DNA of 63,548 bases from Actinomycetes bacterium (GTDB lineage: Bacteria; Bacillota; Sulfobacillia; Sulfobacillales; JAIMBI01): assembly GCA_023565505.1 (NCBI GenBank), contig JAIMBI010000021.1, positions 1 to 63,548 of the forward strand. The letters are read 5' to 3'. Below the pieces are notes generated by a model. It worked only from the letters and a program-made list of their open reading frames with translations, was not told the DNA's origin and searched no databases. Below are positions 1,493 to 42,872 of this stretch, one piece after another (the stretch's first letter is position 1; each line of letters opens with the position of its first letter). The position numbers were made by a program, and so were the translations under genes.

Positions 1493-2152
1493 ATGGCGTT
1501 CTTCGACTGGCGGACAATGCTGCTGGCGCTGCCCGGCATCCTGGTCGCGATGACGTTCCACGAATATGCGCATGGGGTGGTGGCGCTCCGCCTGGGGGAT
1601 CCCACGGCCTTGCGGGCGGGCCGGCTGTCGCCGGAACCGTGGGCCCACATCGACTGGTTCGGTCTCCTGGCGCTTTTGATCTTCGGGTTCGGCTGGGCGA
1701 AGCCGGTCCCCATCGATCCGCGCTACTTCCGTCATCCGCGCCGCGACATGATGTGGGTCGGACTGGCGGGGCCGGTGTCGAACCTGGTCATGGCGTTCGC
1801 CTTCGCCCTGGCGCTCGGCTTCTGGAATCGCATCGCGCCGGCCAGCATGGTCGGCGGCATCGGCTACTACGCCGCCGAGGTGGTCGACACCGCGTTCGTT
1901 CTGAATGTCGCCTTCGGGTTGTTCAACCTCATCCCCATCCCGCCGCTCGACGGGTCGCGCGTCCTCGCCGGGTTGGTGCCGGGCTCGGTGGCCCGCGCGA
2001 TCTACCGGCTCGAGCCTTACGGGCTGGTCATTCTGGTGTTGGCGCTAGTGGCGACGCCGCTTTTGCCGGCGGTCCTGAACCCGCTCCGCCAAGCCGTGGC
2101 GGGGGGATTGTGGTCGGGAGCGGAATGGGTGGTGCGGGGAGTGCTCCGGTAG
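1493..2152 (+). CDS. Site-2-protease-family (M50) membrane metalloprotease
   Basis: Polytopic membrane zinc protease of the short S2P/YwhC-type family, 219 aa. HEYAH (H23, E24, H27) gives two zinc ligands and the catalytic glutamate. The second motif, PIPPLDGSR, carries the third ligand D153. Hydrophobic segments cover most of the rest. There is no PDZ domain, unlike RseP at 52412 in this window. The ATG start follows GGGGAGGGACC. It lies 25 nt after lysA and 46 nt before trpS in what looks like one operon. The natural substrate of this subfamily is not known; the position beside trpS and scpA is conserved in many Firmicutes. Confidence 0.88.
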   Translation: MAFFDWRTMLLALPGILVAMTFHEYAHGVVALRLGDPTALRAGRLSPEPWAHIDWFGLLALLIFGFGWAKPVPIDPRYFRHPRRDMMWVGLAGPVSNLVMAFAFALALGFWNRIAPASMVGGIGYYAAEVVDTAFVLNVAFGLFNLIPIPPLDGSRVLAGLVPGSVARAIYRLEPYGLVILVLALVATPLLPAVLNPLRQAVAGGLWSGAEWVVRGVLR

Positions 2153-2198
2153 GGGCGGCCTGCGGAACCGCCGGATGCGGGACGGACGGGAGGTCAGG

Positions 2199-3245
2199 AT
2201 GGAGCAGGGTACAGGTAGGGAACGGGTCCTCTCGGGGATGCAGCCGTCGGGCGCACTGCACCTGGGGAACTGGATGGGGGCCCTGGCCAAGTGGGTGGAA
2301 CTCCAGGACCGCTACGAATGCTTCTTCATGGTGGCCGACATCCACGCGCTGACGACCGGCTACCACGACACGAGCCGGCTGCCCGAGCTCACCCGGGCGA
2401 TGGCCGTGGACTGGCTCGCCGCGGGCCTCGACCCGGCGCGCGCGGTGCTGTTCGTTCAGAGTGCCGTCCCGGCGCACGCGGAACTGTTCCTGGCGTTGTC
2501 CATGTTGGTGCCGCTCGGTTGGCTGGAGCGGGTCCCGAGCTACAAGGAAAAGCTTAGGGAGCTGGAGCAGCGGGAGATCCACACCTACGGCTTCCTGGGG
2601 TATCCGGCGTTGCAGGCCGCCGACATCCTGCTCTACCGGGCCGCCTGGGTCCCGGTCGGCCAGGACCAGGTGCCGCACGTGGAACTCACCCGGGAGATCG
2701 CCAGGCGGTTCAATCATCTTTACGGGCCCGTGCTCCGGGAACCCGAGGCGCTCCTGGGCGACGCCCCCGTCCTGCCGGGTCTTGACGGCCGCAAGATGTC
2801 GAAGAGCTACGGCAACACCATCGCGCTGGCCGACTCGGCCCAGACGGTCGAGACCAAGATCCGGGCCATGGTCACCGATCCCGCCCGCGTCCGGCGGACG
2901 GATCCGGGCCATCCCGAGGTGTGCCCGGTCTTCCAGTGGCACCGTATCTTCCATCCCGACGCGGGCGCCATCGAGTCGGCCTGCCGGACGGCGCAGATCG
3001 GGTGCGTCGACTGCAAGCGCCAGCTGGCCCGCTTGGTCAACGAGCGCCTGGAACCCATCCGGGAGCGGCAGGCCTACTGGTCCGGACGCCCCGCCGAGGT
3101 GGAGGACGTCCTGGTGGAGGGGTCCGCCCGGGCCCGCGAGGCGGCTGAGGCCGTGATGGACGACGTGCGGACGGCGATGCATCTCACGGAAGGCCGGGCT
3201 TGGACGGATGGGCGCGGCGCTGCGACTGGTCCACTTCCGCGGTAG
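2199..3245 (+). CDS. trpS: Tryptophanyl-tRNA synthetase
   Basis: Class-Ic synthetase charging tRNA-Trp, cytoplasmic, 348 aa as usual. The N-terminus reads SGMQPSGALHLGNWMG (HIGH-type motif HLGN at 21-24), and the KMSKS loop is K199-S203 in GRKMSKSYGN. ATG 2199 is preferred over ATG 2175 because GGGAGG sits 6-12 nt before it and the family begins close to the SGMQPSG motif. The 3' end overlaps scpA by 38 nt. No T-box leader is visible in the short upstream gap, so control probably comes from the lysA promoter region. Confidence 0.95.
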   Translation: MEQGTGRERVLSGMQPSGALHLGNWMGALAKWVELQDRYECFFMVADIHALTTGYHDTSRLPELTRAMAVDWLAAGLDPARAVLFVQSAVPAHAELFLALSMLVPLGWLERVPSYKEKLRELEQREIHTYGFLGYPALQAADILLYRAAWVPVGQDQVPHVELTREIARRFNHLYGPVLREPEALLGDAPVLPGLDGRKMSKSYGNTIALADSAQTVETKIRAMVTDPARVRRTDPGHPEVCPVFQWHRIFHPDAGAIESACRTAQIGCVDCKRQLARLVNERLEPIRERQAYWSGRPAEVEDVLVEGSARAREAAEAVMDDVRTAMHLTEGRAWTDGRGAATGPLPR

Positions 3246-3903
3246 TCTCGCGGGCTTGGCCGAGCGCCTGCGGCGGCGTCGGCTCGAGGCGCGGGACATC
3301 CGGGCGACGGAGCTGGTGCGCCAGCTGCGGGCCTATTGGGCGACCGTGGAGAGCGTCGACCCGGTGGCCGACGAGCTGCCGGTGGCGGCGTGGGTGATCC
3401 GACAGAAAGCGGCGGCGATGGTACCCGCGGAGACGCCGCCCGAGCCACCGCCCCCGGCTCCGCCCGCCGGCGTGGACGCGTGGGCCGAGACGCTGCGCCG
3501 CCTCTACGCGGCGCGCGTCCCCGCGGTGGCGGGGCCGCCGCGCTGGCCCGACGCCGGTCCGCCCCGCATCGCGGGGGCGACACCGGCCCGTCTTGCGGCC
3601 GCGTGGCCGCCCACCCGGCAAAAGCGCCCGCCCCCGGTCCCGGTCGCCGTACCGACCCCGCCGCCGTTGTGGCGCCGGGCGCGGGAGGTCCTGCAGCGGC
3701 TGCGCCGGGGCGGCGCGCGGGTGCGGTGGAGTCGGCTGGTGGCCGGCTGGGGACGCCCTCGCCGGGTGGACGCGTTTCTGATCGTGCTGGCGTTGTGGCG
3801 TCGCGGCGCGGTGGACGTGATCCAGGAGGACGCGTCCGGAGAACCGGAGGTGAGCTGGCGTGGCCGACGGTCGCCCGCCCGTTCCGCCCCCGCCCGACTC
3901 TGA
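3208..3903 (+). CDS. scpA: Divergent segregation and condensation protein A (kleisin)
   Basis: Kleisin that should bridge SMC heads and bind ScpB. Identification rests on position (trpS-scpA-scpB) and on two weakly conserved ends. Near the N-terminus, VHFRGSLAGLAERLRRRRLE corresponds to the FxGPLDLLLHLI helix of ScpA, followed by a DELPVAAWVIRQKAAAMVP block like the usual AAxLLxIKSxxLLP. The C-terminal winged helix is FLIVLALWRRGAVDVIQ. The middle (about residues 75-150) is proline- and alanine-rich and looks disordered, and the acidic residues typical of ScpA are scarce. At 231 aa it is slightly short. It overlaps trpS by 38 nt and scpB by 44 nt. A fast-evolving but functional ScpA is more likely than decay, because the frame is intact and coupled. 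Confidence 0.7.
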   Translation: MGAALRLVHFRGSLAGLAERLRRRRLEARDIRATELVRQLRAYWATVESVDPVADELPVAAWVIRQKAAAMVPAETPPEPPPPAPPAGVDAWAETLRRLYAARVPAVAGPPRWPDAGPPRIAGATPARLAAAWPPTRQKRPPPVPVAVPTPPPLWRRAREVLQRLRRGGARVRWSRLVAGWGRPRRVDAFLIVLALWRRGAVDVIQEDASGEPEVSWRGRRSPARSAPARL

Positions 3904-4405
3904 CCTGTCCGCGGGCCTTGCGGCGATTCTCTTCGCTCACGGCGATCCGGTGCCCGCGGAGACGCTCGCCGAATGGTTGGGCCTCCCGGCGGAGGGGGTC
4001 GAGGCCGTCGCCCTCGACCTCGCGGAGCGGCTCCGGAGCACGCCCTGGACCGTGCGGCAAGTGGCGGGGGGCTTCCAGCTGGTCTTGCGTCCGACGTGGT
4101 CCCGCTGGATCGAGGCCCTGCAGCCCGAACGTGTGGAGACGTTGTCGGCCGCGGCGTGGGAGTGTTTGGCGGTGGTCGCCTACCGCCAGCCGGTGACCCG
4201 GCTCGAGGTCGAGGCCCTGCGCCAGGTGGGATCCGAGGCCGCCCTGGAGATGTTGGAACGGCGGGGTCTCATCCAGGCGGTCGGGCGCAAGCGGGCTCCC
4301 GGACGCCCCATCCTGTACGGCACGACCCCGCGCTTTCTGGAGATGTTCGGCCTCGCGCGGATCGAGGACCTGCCCCCACTGCCGGAGGCCCCCGACGCGG
4401 AGTGA
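3860..4405 (+). CDS. scpB: Segregation and condensation protein B
   Basis: Winged-helix dimer that joins SMC and ScpA in the bacterial condensin complex. Of 181 residues, about 18-170 carry two winged-helix domains. Recognisable family blocks are AAILFAHGDPVPAETLAEWL at the start, EALQPERVETLSAAAWECLA, VVAYRQPVTRLEVEALRQVGS, and GRKRAPGRPILYGTTPRFLE, the classical ScpB signature, followed by FGLARIEDLPPLPE. ScpB is far better conserved than the ScpA next to it. It starts inside scpA (44-nt overlap), indicating translational coupling. The N-terminal proline-rich tail is family-typical. Confidence 0.93.
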   Translation: MADGRPPVPPPPDSDLSAGLAAILFAHGDPVPAETLAEWLGLPAEGVEAVALDLAERLRSTPWTVRQVAGGFQLVLRPTWSRWIEALQPERVETLSAAAWECLAVVAYRQPVTRLEVEALRQVGSEAALEMLERRGLIQAVGRKRAPGRPILYGTTPRFLEMFGLARIEDLPPLPEAPDAE

Positions 4406-38461: not shown

Positions 38462-39847
38462 ATGAGCGGGGCGCCGGCCTACTACATCCGGACGTACGGC
38501 TGCCAGATGAACGAGCGGGACTCGGAGATCCTGGCGGGCCAGCTGGAGCAGCTGGGCTATCGTCCGGCCGCGGGGGCCGAGGACGCCCAGTTGGTCATCG
38601 TCAACACCTGCGCGGTCCGCGGTTCGGCCGAGGAACACGCGCTGGGCTACATCGGGCAGCTCAAGCGGCTCAAGGACGCGCGGCCGGAAATGACGATCGC
38701 CGTCGCCGGCTGCATGGCCCAGGAACCCGAGACCATCGCGTGGCTCAAGCGGCATGCGCCCCATGTCGACATCGTCTTCGGGACGCACAACCTCCACCGG
38801 CTGCCGGCCCTGCTGGAGGAGGCGCAGGCGGCGGACGAGATGGTGGTCGACGTCTGGGAGTCGGCGGGCGAGGTGGTGGAGAACCTCCCGTCGCGCCGGG
38901 CCGAGGGCGTCCAGGCGTTCGTCAACGTCATCTACGGGTGCGACAAGTTCTGCACCTTCTGCATCGTCCCGTTCACGCGGGGGCGGGAACGCAGCCGCCG
39001 CCCCGAGGACGTGGAGGCGGAGGTGCGGGCCCTGGCCCGGGAGGGCTTCCAGGACGTGACGCTGCTCGGGCAGAACGTCAACTCCTACGGGCACGACCTC
39101 GACCCGCCCACGGATCTCGCCGACCTCCTGACCCGGCTCGAGCCCATCGAGGGGATTCGGTGGCTCCGGTATCTCACCAGCCATCCCCGGGACTTCAGCC
39201 AGAAGCTCATCGACACGGTGGCCGCGAGCGCGAAGATCAGCCGGCACATCCACCTGCCGGTGCAGTCCGGCAGCTCCGCCGTGCTCCGCAAGATGAACCG
39301 GAAGTACACCCGGGAGCAGTATCTGGACCTGGTGGAACGGATCCGCCGCGCCATCCCCGACGCGGTGCTGACGACGGACATCATCGTGGGGTTTCCGGGC
39401 GAAACGGAAGAGGACTTTCTGGCGACGCTGTCGCTGGTGGAGACGGTCCGGTACGACGCCGCCTTCACGTTCCTCTACTCGGCCCGGGCGGGGACGCCGG
39501 CGGCGCGATGGGAGGCCCGGGGACCGGTCCCGGACCCGGTCAAGAAGGACCGCCTCAACCGGCTCATGGCGCGGCAGTATGCCATCAGCTGGGAGAAGAA
39601 CCAGGCCTGGGTGGGGCGGCGGGAAGTGGTCCTGGTCGAGGGCGTGAGCAAGAAGGACCCGGGGGTGTTGGCCTGCCGCTCGCACGCCAACAAGGTCGTG
39701 CTCATCGCCAACGAACCGGGCGTGGACTTGGTGCATCGTTTCGTCCCTGTGCGTATCACGGGGGCGAAAACCTTTTTCCTGACGGCCGAGCGGGTGGGCG
39801 AGCCGGTCAGCCCGCCGCGACGCCGCGTGGAGCTGCCGGTCCTATAG
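38462..39847 (+). CDS. miaB: tRNA-2-methylthio-N6-dimethylallyladenosine synthase MiaB
   Basis: Radical-SAM methylthiotransferase acting on A37 of tRNAs. 461 aa. The N-terminal UPF0004 domain binds the second cluster (YGCQMN, VNTCAVR, AGCMAQE). The radical-SAM triad is C160, C164, C167 in YGCDKFCTFCIVP. The TRAM domain is C-terminal (HANKVVLIANEPG and RFVPVRITGA). ATG 38462 with GGGAGG 10 nt upstream is preferred over the GTG at 38453. A weak promoter-like TTGACG (38394) overlaps the TPR stop. ypdA/mutS, the usual miaB partners, are absent here. Confidence 0.96.
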   Translation: MSGAPAYYIRTYGCQMNERDSEILAGQLEQLGYRPAAGAEDAQLVIVNTCAVRGSAEEHALGYIGQLKRLKDARPEMTIAVAGCMAQEPETIAWLKRHAPHVDIVFGTHNLHRLPALLEEAQAADEMVVDVWESAGEVVENLPSRRAEGVQAFVNVIYGCDKFCTFCIVPFTRGRERSRRPEDVEAEVRALAREGFQDVTLLGQNVNSYGHDLDPPTDLADLLTRLEPIEGIRWLRYLTSHPRDFSQKLIDTVAASAKISRHIHLPVQSGSSAVLRKMNRKYTREQYLDLVERIRRAIPDAVLTTDIIVGFPGETEEDFLATLSLVETVRYDAAFTFLYSARAGTPAARWEARGPVPDPVKKDRLNRLMARQYAISWEKNQAWVGRREVVLVEGVSKKDPGVLACRSHANKVVLIANEPGVDLVHRFVPVRITGAKTFFLTAERVGEPVSPPRRRVELPVL

Positions 39848-39936: not shown

Positions 39937-41367
39937 GTGGCGAAACAGGAGGGCGCGGCGCCGGAGCTGTCGCGAGTCCTCGGCGTGTCAGGTCTGTGGG
40001 CCGTCGGGTACGGGAACGTCGGGTCGTCGATCTATTACGCCCTGGGGGTGACCACCCTCTACGCGTTGGGCGCGTCGCCCATCGTGCTGATGGTGGCGGG
40101 CGTCTTCTTCACCTTCACCGCGCTGTCGTACGCGGAGGGGACGGCCATGTTGCCCGAGGCGGGCGGGTCGTCCAACTTCGCCCGCCTTGCGCTCAACGAG
40201 GTGTTCAGTTTCTTCGCCGGCTGGGCCCTGATGCTGGACTACATCGTCACCATCGCCATCTCGGCCTTCACGTCGGTGAGCTACCTCAGCTACTTCATCC
40301 CGGGGATGGACCGCGCTCCCGACAACGTCATCGGCGGCCTGGTGGTGGTGGCGCTGCTCATGGCGCTCAACATCGTCGGCGTGCGGGAGACCTCGTGGGT
40401 CAACGTGTTCTTCGCCCTCTTGGACATCGCCACCGAGGTCTTCCTCATCATCGTCGGCGTGGCGGTCGTGCTGAACGGACCCCAGCTGGTGCGGCAGATC
40501 CACTGGGGCACGGCCCCCACGTGGCATGCGCTCATCTACTCGGTGTCGATCGCCATGGTGGCGTATACGGGGATCGAGTCGGTCGCCAACCTGGCCGAGG
40601 AGGCGCGGCAGCCCTCCCGCACCGTGCCGCGGGCCATGATGCTGGTGGTGGGAGCCGTGCTGGCCATCTACCTCGGCATCTCGTCGGTGGCCCTCTCCGC
40701 CCTGCCGGTGCACTACGATCCCCGGCTGCACGCGTACACCAGCTCGCTCGGAACGCGGTGGATCAACGACCCGGTGGCGGGCATCGTGCGACACCTGGGG
40801 GTCTTCTCCCACATCCTGGCCCCGTGGGTGGCCCTCCTGGGCTTCACGATCCTGTTGGTGGCGACCAACGCCGGATTGCTCGGGGTGTCGCGACTCACCT
40901 ACTCCATGGGACGGCACCGGCAGATTCCCGAGGGGCTGCACCGCCTGCACCCCCGCTTCCACACGCCCTACGTGGCCATCTGCTTCTTCTCCCTGCTCGC
41001 CATGGTGCTCATCCTGCCCGGGAGTGTGGAAGACCTCGCCGACCTGTACAGCTACGGGGCCCTTTTGGCGTTCACCACGGCCCACGCGGCCATCATCATC
41101 CTGCGGGTCAAGCGCCCGGACCTCCCGCGACCTTTCATGCCCCCCGGCAACGTGCGCGTGGGCAAGGCCCTCATCCCCCTCACGGCGGTGCTGGGGGGCC
41201 TGGGGACGTTCGGGACGTGGCTGGCGGTGGCCTTGCTGCATCCGGTGGCCCGCGTCGTGGGGCCGCTCTGGATCGTGTTCGGGATGACGCTGTATGTCGT
41301 GTATCGGCGCCGGCACGGCCTGTCGCTCACGCGCACCTGGCAGCCGGCGAGGGGGGAGAGTCCGTGA
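39937..41367 (+). CDS. APC-superfamily permease (KimA/amino-acid-permease-like)
   Basis: 476 aa with about 12 membrane helices. The first helix carries the APC unwound-loop signature GYGNVGSSIYYALGV, followed by ALSYAEGTAMLPEAGGSSNFA and WALMLDYIVTIAIS, then VGVRETSWVN and SVSIAMVAYTGIESVANLAEEARQPSRTVPRA (APC consensus loop). DYIVTIAIS resembles the potassium importer KimA, but the fused C-terminal cytosolic domain of KimA is missing. The GTG start follows GGTGGGGG. Directly coupled (GTGA) to an RCK gene. Substrate, K+ or an amino acid, is open. Confidence 0.85.
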   Translation: MAKQEGAAPELSRVLGVSGLWAVGYGNVGSSIYYALGVTTLYALGASPIVLMVAGVFFTFTALSYAEGTAMLPEAGGSSNFARLALNEVFSFFAGWALMLDYIVTIAISAFTSVSYLSYFIPGMDRAPDNVIGGLVVVALLMALNIVGVRETSWVNVFFALLDIATEVFLIIVGVAVVLNGPQLVRQIHWGTAPTWHALIYSVSIAMVAYTGIESVANLAEEARQPSRTVPRAMMLVVGAVLAIYLGISSVALSALPVHYDPRLHAYTSSLGTRWINDPVAGIVRHLGVFSHILAPWVALLGFTILLVATNAGLLGVSRLTYSMGRHRQIPEGLHRLHPRFHTPYVAICFFSLLAMVLILPGSVEDLADLYSYGALLAFTTAHAAIIILRVKRPDLPRPFMPPGNVRVGKALIPLTAVLGGLGTFGTWLAVALLHPVARVVGPLWIVFGMTLYVVYRRRHGLSLTRTWQPARGESP

Positions 41368-41768
41368 AAGTGATCGTGGTGGGGTCGGGGCGGCTCGGCG
41401 CCAACGTGGCGTCGACGCTCGACCAGGAGGGGCACACCGTGGTGGTCGTGGACAAGAATCCGACTGCCTTCCGCCGCCTGGACCCCCGTTTCGGCGGGAC
41501 CACGCTGGCGGGCGACGGCACCGACATCGACGTCCTCAAGAAGGCGGGCATCGGGGAGGCGGACGTGTTCCTGGCGCTCACCAACTCGAACAACGCGAAC
41601 ATCATGATGGCCCAGGTGGCGATGACCCTGTTCGGCGTCCGGCGCGTGGTGGCCGAGGCCCTCGACCCTGACCGGGTGCGGGTGTTCGAGGTGCTGGGGA
41701 TCCCGTACGTCAACCCCTTCGCGCTGGGCATCGCGGCGGTACTGGACAAGGTCCGGGAGGGGGTGTGA
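41364..41768 (+). CDS. RCK_N (TrkA-N) nucleotide-binding protein, single domain
   Basis: 134 aa, only the Rossmann half of an RCK protein. VIVVGSGRLGANVAS has G7xG9xxG12, and VVVVDKNPTAFRRL ends in the aspartate that binds the NAD(H)/ATP ribose. DVLKKAGIGEADVFLALTN completes it. No TrkA-C ligand domain is present; that is found in the next gene. Four-nt overlap with the permease (GTGA) and three nt to the next start show tight coupling. It probably gates or senses nucleotide state for the permease (inference). Confidence 0.85.
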   Translation: MKVIVVGSGRLGANVASTLDQEGHTVVVVDKNPTAFRRLDPRFGGTTLAGDGTDIDVLKKAGIGEADVFLALTNSNNANIMMAQVAMTLFGVRRVVAEALDPDRVRVFEVLGIPYVNPFALGIAAVLDKVREGV

Positions 41769-41771
41769 GCA

Positions 41772-42440
41772 ATGTACGTCATCGTGGTGGGAGCGGGCCA
41801 GGTCGGGTTCCACTTGGCCAAGAACCTCATCGCCGAAGGGCATGAGGTCACCATCGTGGAGCTCGACGTCAAGACCTGCGACATGCTGGTGGACGTCTTC
41901 GGCGACCGGGTGATCCCGGGGAGCGGGGCCCGCCTGTCGATCCTCAGCCAGGCCGGAGCGGAGCGCGCCGACGTGCTGGTGGCCGCCACCGGGGCGGACG
42001 AGGACAACCTGGTCATCGCCCAACTCGCCCGGCGCCTCGGCGTGCGGCGCGTCATCGCGCGGGTGAACAATCCCTCCAACGTCGAGATTTTCCACCGGCT
42101 GGGCATCGAACTGACGGTGTCGGCGACGCGTCTCATCGCCGCCCTCATCGACCAGGAGGTCGCGGTGGAGGACATGCGCACGCTGCTCACGTTCCCCAGC
42201 GGGGACTTCGAGATCGTGGAGGTGGACGTCTCCGACCGGACCGCCCTGGCCCACCGTCAGGTGCGGGAGATCCTGTGGCCGGACAACACCCTCCTGGTGT
42301 CGATCCTCCGCGCCGGCCGCGTCCTGGTGCCGAAGGGTCGCACGGTCCTCCGCCCCGGCGACCGCCTGCTCGTCCTCACGCCTCCGGACGGCGCGCCGCA
42401 AATCCGCGCCCGCATCGGGGCCGCCCCCGCGAGGACCTGA
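41772..42440 (+). CDS. TrkA-type regulator, RCK_N plus RCK_C
   Basis: 222 aa. RCK_N with VIVVGAGQVGFHLAK (G7xG9xxG12), VTIVELDVKTC and DVLVAATGADEDNLVIAQLA, then RCK_C (about 138-218) with DFEIVEVDVSDRTALAHRQV and RPGDRLLVLTPPDG. RCK_C domains of Firmicutes KtrA-type proteins bind c-di-AMP, which would tie the transporter to turgor signalling; this is a family property, not shown here. No TrkH/KtrB channel gene is nearby, so the partner is presumably the permease. Confidence 0.88.
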   Translation: MYVIVVGAGQVGFHLAKNLIAEGHEVTIVELDVKTCDMLVDVFGDRVIPGSGARLSILSQAGAERADVLVAATGADEDNLVIAQLARRLGVRRVIARVNNPSNVEIFHRLGIELTVSATRLIAALIDQEVAVEDMRTLLTFPSGDFEIVEVDVSDRTALAHRQVREILWPDNTLLVSILRAGRVLVPKGRTVLRPGDRLLVLTPPDGAPQIRARIGAAPART

Positions 42441-42443
42441 CGT

Positions 42444-42872
42444 ATGTGGCGGCATGCGGTCGTACCGGTCGACGGAACGCCCCACAGCCTCCGGGTGCTG
42501 GAGGCGGCCTGCGCCTTCCAGCGCGTCTTCGGCATGGCCATCGACGCCGTCTACGTCATCGAGGTGCCGCGCGCGCTGCCGCTGTCCGCGGAGCTGCCCG
42601 CGCTCCGCTCCAAGGCGGAGGCGGTGATGGCGGAAGTGCGCGCGGTAGCCGAACGGGAAGGGGCGGTGGTGCGCCAGCGGATCATCCAGGCGCGGGCGCT
42701 GGGGGCAGCCATCATCGAGGCGGCGGCGGAGGGCGACGTGCTGATGGTGGCGGGGCGCGCCACGACGCGGTTCAACAGCCCTTGGGGGGAGGATCTGGCG
42801 TCGTTCCTGTTCCGCAAGGCGCCGACGGCGGTCCTGCTCTTCCGCGATCCCCGGGTGGGCCAGGAGAGTTGA
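42444..42872 (+). CDS. Universal stress protein (UspA) family protein
   Basis: 142 aa. The start RHAVVPVDGTPHSLRVLEAAC is the UspA strand-turn-helix with the nucleotide Asp, and the phosphate loop is VAGRATTRFNSPWGEDLASFLFRKAPTAVLLF. The usual G-x2-G-x9-G-S/T motif is diverged (GRATTRFNSPWGEDLAS), so ATP binding is uncertain. It is the last gene of the permease-RCK-RCK unit, 3 nt after the RCK stop. KimA-type importers carry a related domain at their C-terminus. Confidence 0.85.
   Translation: MWRHAVVPVDGTPHSLRVLEAACAFQRVFGMAIDAVYVIEVPRALPLSAELPALRSKAEAVMAEVRAVAEREGAVVRQRIIQARALGAAIIEAAAEGDVLMVAGRATTRFNSPWGEDLASFLFRKAPTAVLLFRDPRVGQES

Follow-up and report, generated by a model that had tools for sequence, protein, structure and literature searches.

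A candidate potassium importer that combines an APC-type carrier, a pair of RCK proteins and a universal stress protein

In a stretch of 63,548 nucleotides from the Actinomycetes bacterium assembly GCA_023565505.1 (contig JAIMBI010000021.1; GTDB lineage Bacillota, Sulfobacillia, Sulfobacillales, JAIMBI01), hereafter the window, four coupled genes encode a permease of the APC fold, two RCK proteins (RCK1 and RCK2) and a UspA-like universal stress protein (USP). On balance, and with some reserve, we favor the reading that the four genes encode one potassium importer, made up of an APC carrier with a site like that of the symporter KimA, an RCK pair like TM1088 of Thermotoga maritima, and a USP. 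The operon, its conservation, the KimA-like residues of the permease, the lack of any other recognised potassium importer in the assembly and the kinship of RCK1 and RCK2 to TM1088A and TM1088B are observations. The parts are of known kinds; the combination of APC carrier, RCK pair and USP was not found described in the open-licence PubMed Central (PMC) literature searched, where titles and abstract openings gave no description of an RCK–APC pairing.

Results

Four coupled genes and their conserved neighborhood

All four genes lie on the forward strand. That of the permease, the predicted potassium carrier (39937..41367; GTG start, 476 amino acids, PF13520 at E 7.6e-45), overlaps that of RCK1 (41364..41768; GTG start, 134 amino acids) by four nucleotides in a GTGA start-stop overlap (41364..41367), and gaps of three nucleotides each separate RCK1 from RCK2 (41772..42440; ATG start, 222 amino acids) and RCK2 from the UspA-like gene (42444..42872; ATG start, 142 amino acids, PF00582 at E 3.7e-10). 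The coordinates of the open reading frames (ORFs) and their Pfam domains thus confirm the four-gene operon, with its one overlap and two short gaps, that a preliminary description of this DNA had proposed.

Genomes of the window's phylum were scanned with a profile built from 24 relatives of the permease. At E 1e-60 few genomes of the phylum have the permease group (3 of 199), and a larger share of those in the class do (11 of 61). With the window left out, an RCK pair lies within 3 kb of the permease in nine of 14 same-phylum loci and a USP gene in ten; the genes most often follow one another as permease, USP, short RCK and full RCK, and one of the five loci negative for the RCK linkage (L113) ends at the permease's 3' side. 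As a control, 40 APC permeases from outside this group but within the same class were inspected, 29 of them in loci with 3 kb on either side: RCK pairs and USP genes are absent within 3 kb of all 40, the single weak RCK-profile match, at L187, being an alanine dehydrogenase by Pfam. The difference in RCK-pair linkage, 9/14 versus 0/40, is highly significant (Fisher p 3.8e-7).

A wider scan covered contigs from one genome per species, and its best 80 loci fall mostly in Thermoleophilia (Actinomycetota) and Chloroflexota; Actinomycetota are not evenly sampled, as the counts rest on these 80. A firm RCK pair lies downstream in 25 of them, directly after the permease in nine and after a second related, more distant permease in 16. 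The count leaves out L090, where the first RCK is firm and the second is a weak match in an ORF of 469 amino acids (26 of 80 with L090), as well as L043, where the other strand carries the pair and a second permease, and L072, whose RCK gene lies 4.9 kb downstream. Among loci with at least 4 kb of downstream sequence the pair is present in 20 of 59 (L090, with its one firm RCK, among them). The neighborhood is conserved in relatives, as the preliminary description had anticipated, and the modular importer with a two-protein RCK regulator proposed there is likewise supported, yet about two-thirds of the evaluable wider-scan loci are without the pair nearby. The preliminary description had suggested a search for the gene order across Bacillota; that scope was too narrow, many cases lying in Actinomycetota and Chloroflexota. 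In the Thermoleophilia there are also dual-permease clusters (L011, L025, L047, L054, L060 and others), in which two USP-fused permeases with different site types precede one RCK pair.

The permease has a KimA-like site

An AlphaFold2 (AF2) model of the permease has the APC fold (mean pLDDT 89.4). Comparison of the permease profile with KimA-type proteins by hhalign gives a probability of 99.3 and E 2.9e-20; the corresponding value for Escherichia coli Kup is E 0.24. In the profile alignment the motif D101-Y-I-V-T105-I-A-I-S109 of transmembrane segment 3 (TM3; 40237..40263) falls on KimA D117, T121 and S125, the TM6 motif T211-G-I-E214-S-V-A-N218 (40567..40590) on T230, the proton site E233 and N237, and Y371 (41047..41049) on the potassium gate Y377. 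TM1 lies outside the local alignment to KimA, and its residues were paired by motif and spacing: N27-V-G-S-S-I-Y-Y34 (40015..40038) stands against D36...Y43 of KimA and D23...Y30 of Kup, with a spacing of seven in all. KimA Y43, T121, S125, E233 and Y377 are accordingly matched by Y34, T105, S109, E214 and Y371.

The six KimA site residues T121, S125, T230, E233, N237 and Y377 are kept in 85 of 87 relatives and in all three KimA types compared, whereas none of 41 control ORFs (two genes are included twice) has four or more of them. The kinship to KimA that had been suggested for this permease is upheld by these residues and by the profile comparison. At the level of overall sequence the resemblance is slight: identity to KimA is about 22%, and Pfam returns only AA_permease families and no K_trans, which places the protein outside the KUP/KimA family. 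A search of a plasmid collection with the permease gave a best match of only 29% identity.

RCK1 and RCK2 belong to an old pair

RCK1 consists of an RCK_N domain only (PF02254 at E 4.2e-28, without PF02080), with the nucleotide motif GSGRLG at 41382..41399, and its best solved match is TM1088A (3l4b; E 3.5e-27). RCK2 has both PF02254 and PF02080, carries the motif GAGQVG at 41790..41807, and matches TrkA chains and TM1088B. Papers cited by PMC number, here and below, are cited from excerpts. In T. maritima TrkH is served by an octameric ring of AMP-binding TM1088A and its partner TM1088B, TM1088A being the RCK_N-only half and the other half a full RCK protein (PMC4380455). Seven of the nine AMP-site residues named for TM1088A in that source are kept in RCK1 (G14, G16, R17, G19, D37, G57 and T80); the changes relative to TM1088A are A59 to G and R105 to E.

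In every one of the 26 wider-scan loci, L090 included, the RCK protein that comes first in the cluster has only the RCK_N domain and ends 2 to 31 residues past it, and the short RCK1 is therefore a conserved state rather than a truncation in the window. In a tree of RCK_N domains the first and second members of pairs separate with support of 98/93 (100/97 without L218 of Acetoanaerobium). RCK1 and RCK2 fall on opposite sides of this split. It holds for four kinds of partner, namely TrkH (L216, L217), a KimA homologue (L123, L124), a P-type ATPase (L125) and an APC permease, and the subgroups of one half recur in the other; it follows that the pair is old and that its neighbors have changed. 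The tree comprises 129 columns for 66 rows and has 22 open forks; both window proteins sit on open forks, and the branch of RCK1 is long. Judged by sequence, RCK1 and RCK2 belong to an old pair related to the TM1088A/TM1088B ring.

Several other loci show variants of the pair. In three loci of one genus (L114, L115, L116) both RCK proteins are short, with maximal ORFs of 133–164 amino acids. On plasmid p1 of Streptomyces fungicidicus (L125, 1529-5657) a gene for a cation P-type ATPase overlaps the RCK pair by 4 nucleotides, with universal stress genes nearby, and the ATPase is a candidate RCK-controlled pump; a second Streptomyces plasmid (L215) has a short match to this ATPase beside an RCK match. 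A plasmid of Halobellus ramosii (L126, 2239-7298) brings carrier, RCK and channel together, with genes for a USP, a permease whose C-terminal part is long, TrkA and TrkH in a single run.

The assembly has no other recognised potassium importer

The window's assembly is 97.6% complete with 6.6% contamination. Searches gave no match to TrkH, KdpA, Kup or KimA (the last at E 1e-10), which led us to reject a hidden TrkH, Kdp, Kup or KimA, and the only two other APC permeases both lack the KimA-like site. The absence of a TrkH gene from the cluster and from the assembly agrees with the earlier statement that the locus has no TrkH/KtrB-type channel. The genome of L015 (G257), which has the whole cluster, is likewise without a TrkH, KdpA or Kup match, and its sole match to the KimA query is, by coordinates, the permease itself; the same is true of the KimA-query match in G256, where the locus (L018) is without the RCK pair that G257 has. 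In seven wider-scan genomes TrkH was found once, in an archaeal metagenome-assembled genome; among the other six, KdpA occurs in three, Kup in one and a KimA homologue in two (G261, and G255 with one stop), and G256 and G257 have only the permease itself.

The situation is less simple in the window's phylum. The preliminary description had considered that a TrkH elsewhere might go with these RCK proteins; none is present in the window's assembly, but TrkH is present in seven of 13 phylum genomes that carry the permease group. In the four of these seven that were examined, TrkH has an RCK gene within 1 kb, and so it need not use the APC-linked pair. On the ground of these four genomes TrkH was rejected as the true partner of that pair in the phylum.

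Two further features belong to the genomic setting. A gene named miaB from its Pfam domains lies 5' of the permease, ending at 39847, with 89 nucleotides between. On contig C41 of the same genome (L002, around 41382) there is a channel-like protein with an RCK part, whose filter region reads TTVGDA and not TVGYG.

The universal stress protein and c-di-AMP

Permease and USP domain form one protein in 102 ORFs of the wider-scan loci, many from Actinomycetota, a fusion that strengthens the case for the USP as part of the system. In same-phylum relatives the USP gene stands between permease and RCK1 (nine loci), as it does in L015, L051 and L073 of the wider scan; in the window, unlike in these relatives, it is last in the operon. 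ATP-binding universal stress proteins have a G2xG9xG(S/T) motif. This motif is absent from the window USP and present in one of the 102 fused ORFs, and the window USP has no match in the PDB at E 0.01.

A riboswitch for cyclic di-AMP (c-di-AMP; ydaO/yuaA, RF00379, 86–90 bits) lies 17–120 nucleotides before the most upstream permease start in L111, L118 and L119, three of the 14 loci of the window's phylum. The three belong to different families, and their operons read permease–USP–RCK–RCK. None of the 40 control permeases has a riboswitch so placed, some of their loci ending close to the permease; control L175 has one c-di-AMP riboswitch 3.5 kb downstream of the permease. A diadenylate cyclase domain is present in the window's assembly. 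The preliminary description had looked to the RCK_C domain for c-di-AMP binding, and this was not borne out: the signature (I/L)(I/L)X2DX1RX5N(I/L)(I/L) given for c-di-AMP-binding RCK_C domains (PMC10117811, excerpts) occurs in none of 73 related RCK ORFs and is absent from RCK2, so that binding by RCK2 was rejected. It is through a riboswitch upstream of three related operons that c-di-AMP enters.

KimA homologues beside RCK pairs

In Nonomuraea (L123) a KimA homologue (37.7% identity over 640 residues; E 3e-120 to 6s3k) is divergent from an RCK pair 70 nucleotides away, and this pair is of the same two lineages as RCK1 and RCK2. In Streptomyces BHT-5-2 (L124) the distance between KimA homologue and RCK pair is 2.5 kb; the interval contains, on the minus strand, an ORF of 681 amino acids with two TrkA_N stretches (2011-4053), whose product is a possible third regulator.

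These arrangements touch on the 'Trk' systems of actinobacteria. A review of streptomycetes treats the KimA-like Vnz_27465 and the RCK_C protein Vnz_27460 in separate places and finds no TrkH or KtrB; its excerpts do not connect the two proteins, whose locus numbers are neighbors (PMC10117811). Mycobacterial Trk is described as a transporter of two TrkA proteins (PMC13163235); two RCK proteins, CeoB and CeoC, are needed for potassium uptake (PMC6375644, PMC13163235), and term searches in three papers on such systems found no membrane subunit named. The gene ceoB and the adjacent Rv2690c have the same transposon phenotype (PMC12216072). The Nonomuraea arrangement suggests a membrane partner for mycobacterial 'Trk'. 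By analogy with that arrangement, Rv2690c is probably KimA-like.

A far-reaching proposal may be framed from these data: that CeoB/CeoC, TM1088A/TM1088B and RCK1/RCK2 are one ancient, interchangeable gating ring that serves three or more machines of unrelated kinds (APC-fold carriers, both this group and KimA, the TrkH channel, and a P-type ATPase), and that the long-missing membrane subunit of mycobacterial 'Trk' is the KimA-type carrier encoded beside ceoBC. We put it forward tentatively and lean somewhat against it; its odds are lowered by the adjacency of KimA and RCK genes, which is not general in the loci examined.

Discussion

The case for potassium import and the points against it

We favor a potassium importer because the permease is linked to RCK and USP genes, is fused to the USP domain in relatives, has a KimA-like site and is the sole candidate in the assembly; the c-di-AMP riboswitch, the match of RCK1 to TM1088A and the adjacency of KimA and an RCK pair in Nonomuraea argue in the same direction.

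Other observations weigh against it. The acidic TM1 residue of KUP and KimA symporters (KimA D36, Kup D23) is N27 in the window permease; the position is N in 82 of 87 relatives and D in five (L073 is of this D27 type), and KimA D36N is dead (PMC6994465, excerpts). Of the six KimA residues, two are kept in the 14 permeases of the other genomes in the window's phylum, which have acidic residues instead, and the second ('b') permeases of dual loci, which adjoin the RCK pair, mostly have one to four of the six (25 of 28; L084 and L087, sorted into this group by score as an insert splits their match, belong by sequence to the group of the window permease). The nearest curated family profiles are those of amino acid transporters, although the permease scores far below their cut-offs, and fold comparison does not separate KimA from ApcT and the CATs. 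As to the neighborhood, in 39 of the 59 loci that extend 4 kb or more downstream no RCK gene starts within 3.5 kb on the same strand, and the permease therefore also occurs apart from the pair; a pair of short and full RCK proteins also adjoins TrkH, with RCK pairs beside TrkG/TrkH in Acaryochloris and Cetobacterium. The KimA homologues of L221 and L222, on the Thermoleophilia side, have no RCK match within about 6 kb. No c-di-AMP riboswitch was found in 17 loci from other phyla, and one on the window's own operon was rejected, the one match being at E 0.25 and far below the gathering score.

If the permease were a CAT/APA-type carrier of amino acids (or polyamines), under the allosteric control of RCK nucleotide sensors and a stress protein, its substrate would not be potassium. 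The nearest profiles, the asparagine in place of KimA's essential TM1 aspartate, and the Foldseek ranking, with bacterial CAT and BasC first (top match 5oqt_A; rmsd, root-mean-square deviation, of 2.3–2.5 to GkApcT/CAT), all fit this alternative. CAT/APA amino acid transporters have a TM1 G-x-G carboxylate motif. It is missing from the permease group, which has G-S-S in 87 of 87 relatives; the third position is G in 26 of 41 control ORFs and S in two, with five unaligned there. The permease also falls outside TIGR00909 (CAT/APA), scoring 177.2 bits against a cut-off of 556.8, and an amino acid carrier sits poorly with the retention of the six-residue KimA site, with the riboswitch and RCK linkage, and with the failure to find another potassium importer in the assembly. 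We regard it as unlikely.

It seems to us less likely again that the RCK pair works with a potassium channel encoded elsewhere, such as the channel-like RCK protein of contig C41, its place in an osmotic-stress operon beside an unrelated permease being incidental. The RCK pairs beside TrkG/TrkH, the Halobellus run and the presence of that channel-like protein in the same genome speak for such an arrangement; however, the channel-like protein has an RCK part of its own, the assembly has no TrkH, the four TrkH genes examined in relatives have their own RCK gene within 1 kb, and RCK linkage is a feature of this permease group, not of APC permeases in general. Kef antiporters are also under the control of RCK domains. 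There is little probability that the carrier moves another cation or exports potassium, with a ring acting as in Kef or KhtTU antiporters: RCK domains do control KhtT/KhtU (PMC10117811, excerpts) and the same-phylum relatives show an acid-rich site, but the fold is APC and not that of CPA antiporters, and the assembly would then have no findable importer.

The acid-rich site merits mention in its own right. In the phylum permeases L106–L119 it comprises D27, D31, D101 and D105 in 13 of 13 readable sequences, with RCK and USP neighbors unchanged; it perhaps reflects another cation or a different coupling.

A possible mechanism and its implications

If the four genes form a potassium importer, then the carrier would import potassium with protons, E214 acting as the proton site as E233 does in KimA. 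The short RCK1 and the full RCK2 may assemble into an octameric ring like that of TM1088, which would touch the cytosolic face of the carrier and switch it by the level of adenine nucleotide or NAD(H); the USP might do what the C-terminal cytosolic domain does in KimA. The membrane partner of the RCK pair would then have switched between a channel, TrkH, and a carrier of the LeuT fold.

Channels and antiporters are the known targets of gating by RCK rings. Gating of a LeuT-fold carrier by such a ring would, if real, be a new regulatory design in which one regulator could serve different transport mechanisms, and it would explain potassium uptake in some bacteria without the usual Trk channel. 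It also offers a testable answer to the question of which membrane protein is used by the TrkA-only 'Trk' systems of actinobacteria.

Comparison with known systems

The operon product would work like KimA with a Trk-type ring, yet it stands outside the KimA/KUP family, by its TM1 residue and its sequence, and outside the Trk rings, by the lack of TrkH. With KimA, the potassium/proton symporter of the KUP family in Bacillus subtilis, the permease shares the APC fold; it differs in its low identity and in having N27 in place of D36, and the window encodes the USP by a gene of its own and adds two RCK genes. The GkApcT/CAT transporters also share the fold; unlike them, the window permease has no TM1 GxG, has KimA-type residues in TM3, TM6 and TM10, and scores far below the profile cut-off. 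CeoB/CeoC resemble the window system in having two RCK proteins, and the matching pair in Nonomuraea adjoins a KimA homologue; there, unlike in the window, both RCK proteins are full length (224 and 218 amino acids) and the carrier is KimA-type and divergent. In the TM1088A/TM1088B ring the partner is TrkH (TM1089), for which the window's assembly has no match, and RCK2 keeps GxGxxG, whereas TM1088B is said to have no dinucleotide site (PMC4380455, excerpts); common to that ring and to RCK1/RCK2 is the composition of one RCK_N-only and one full RCK protein.

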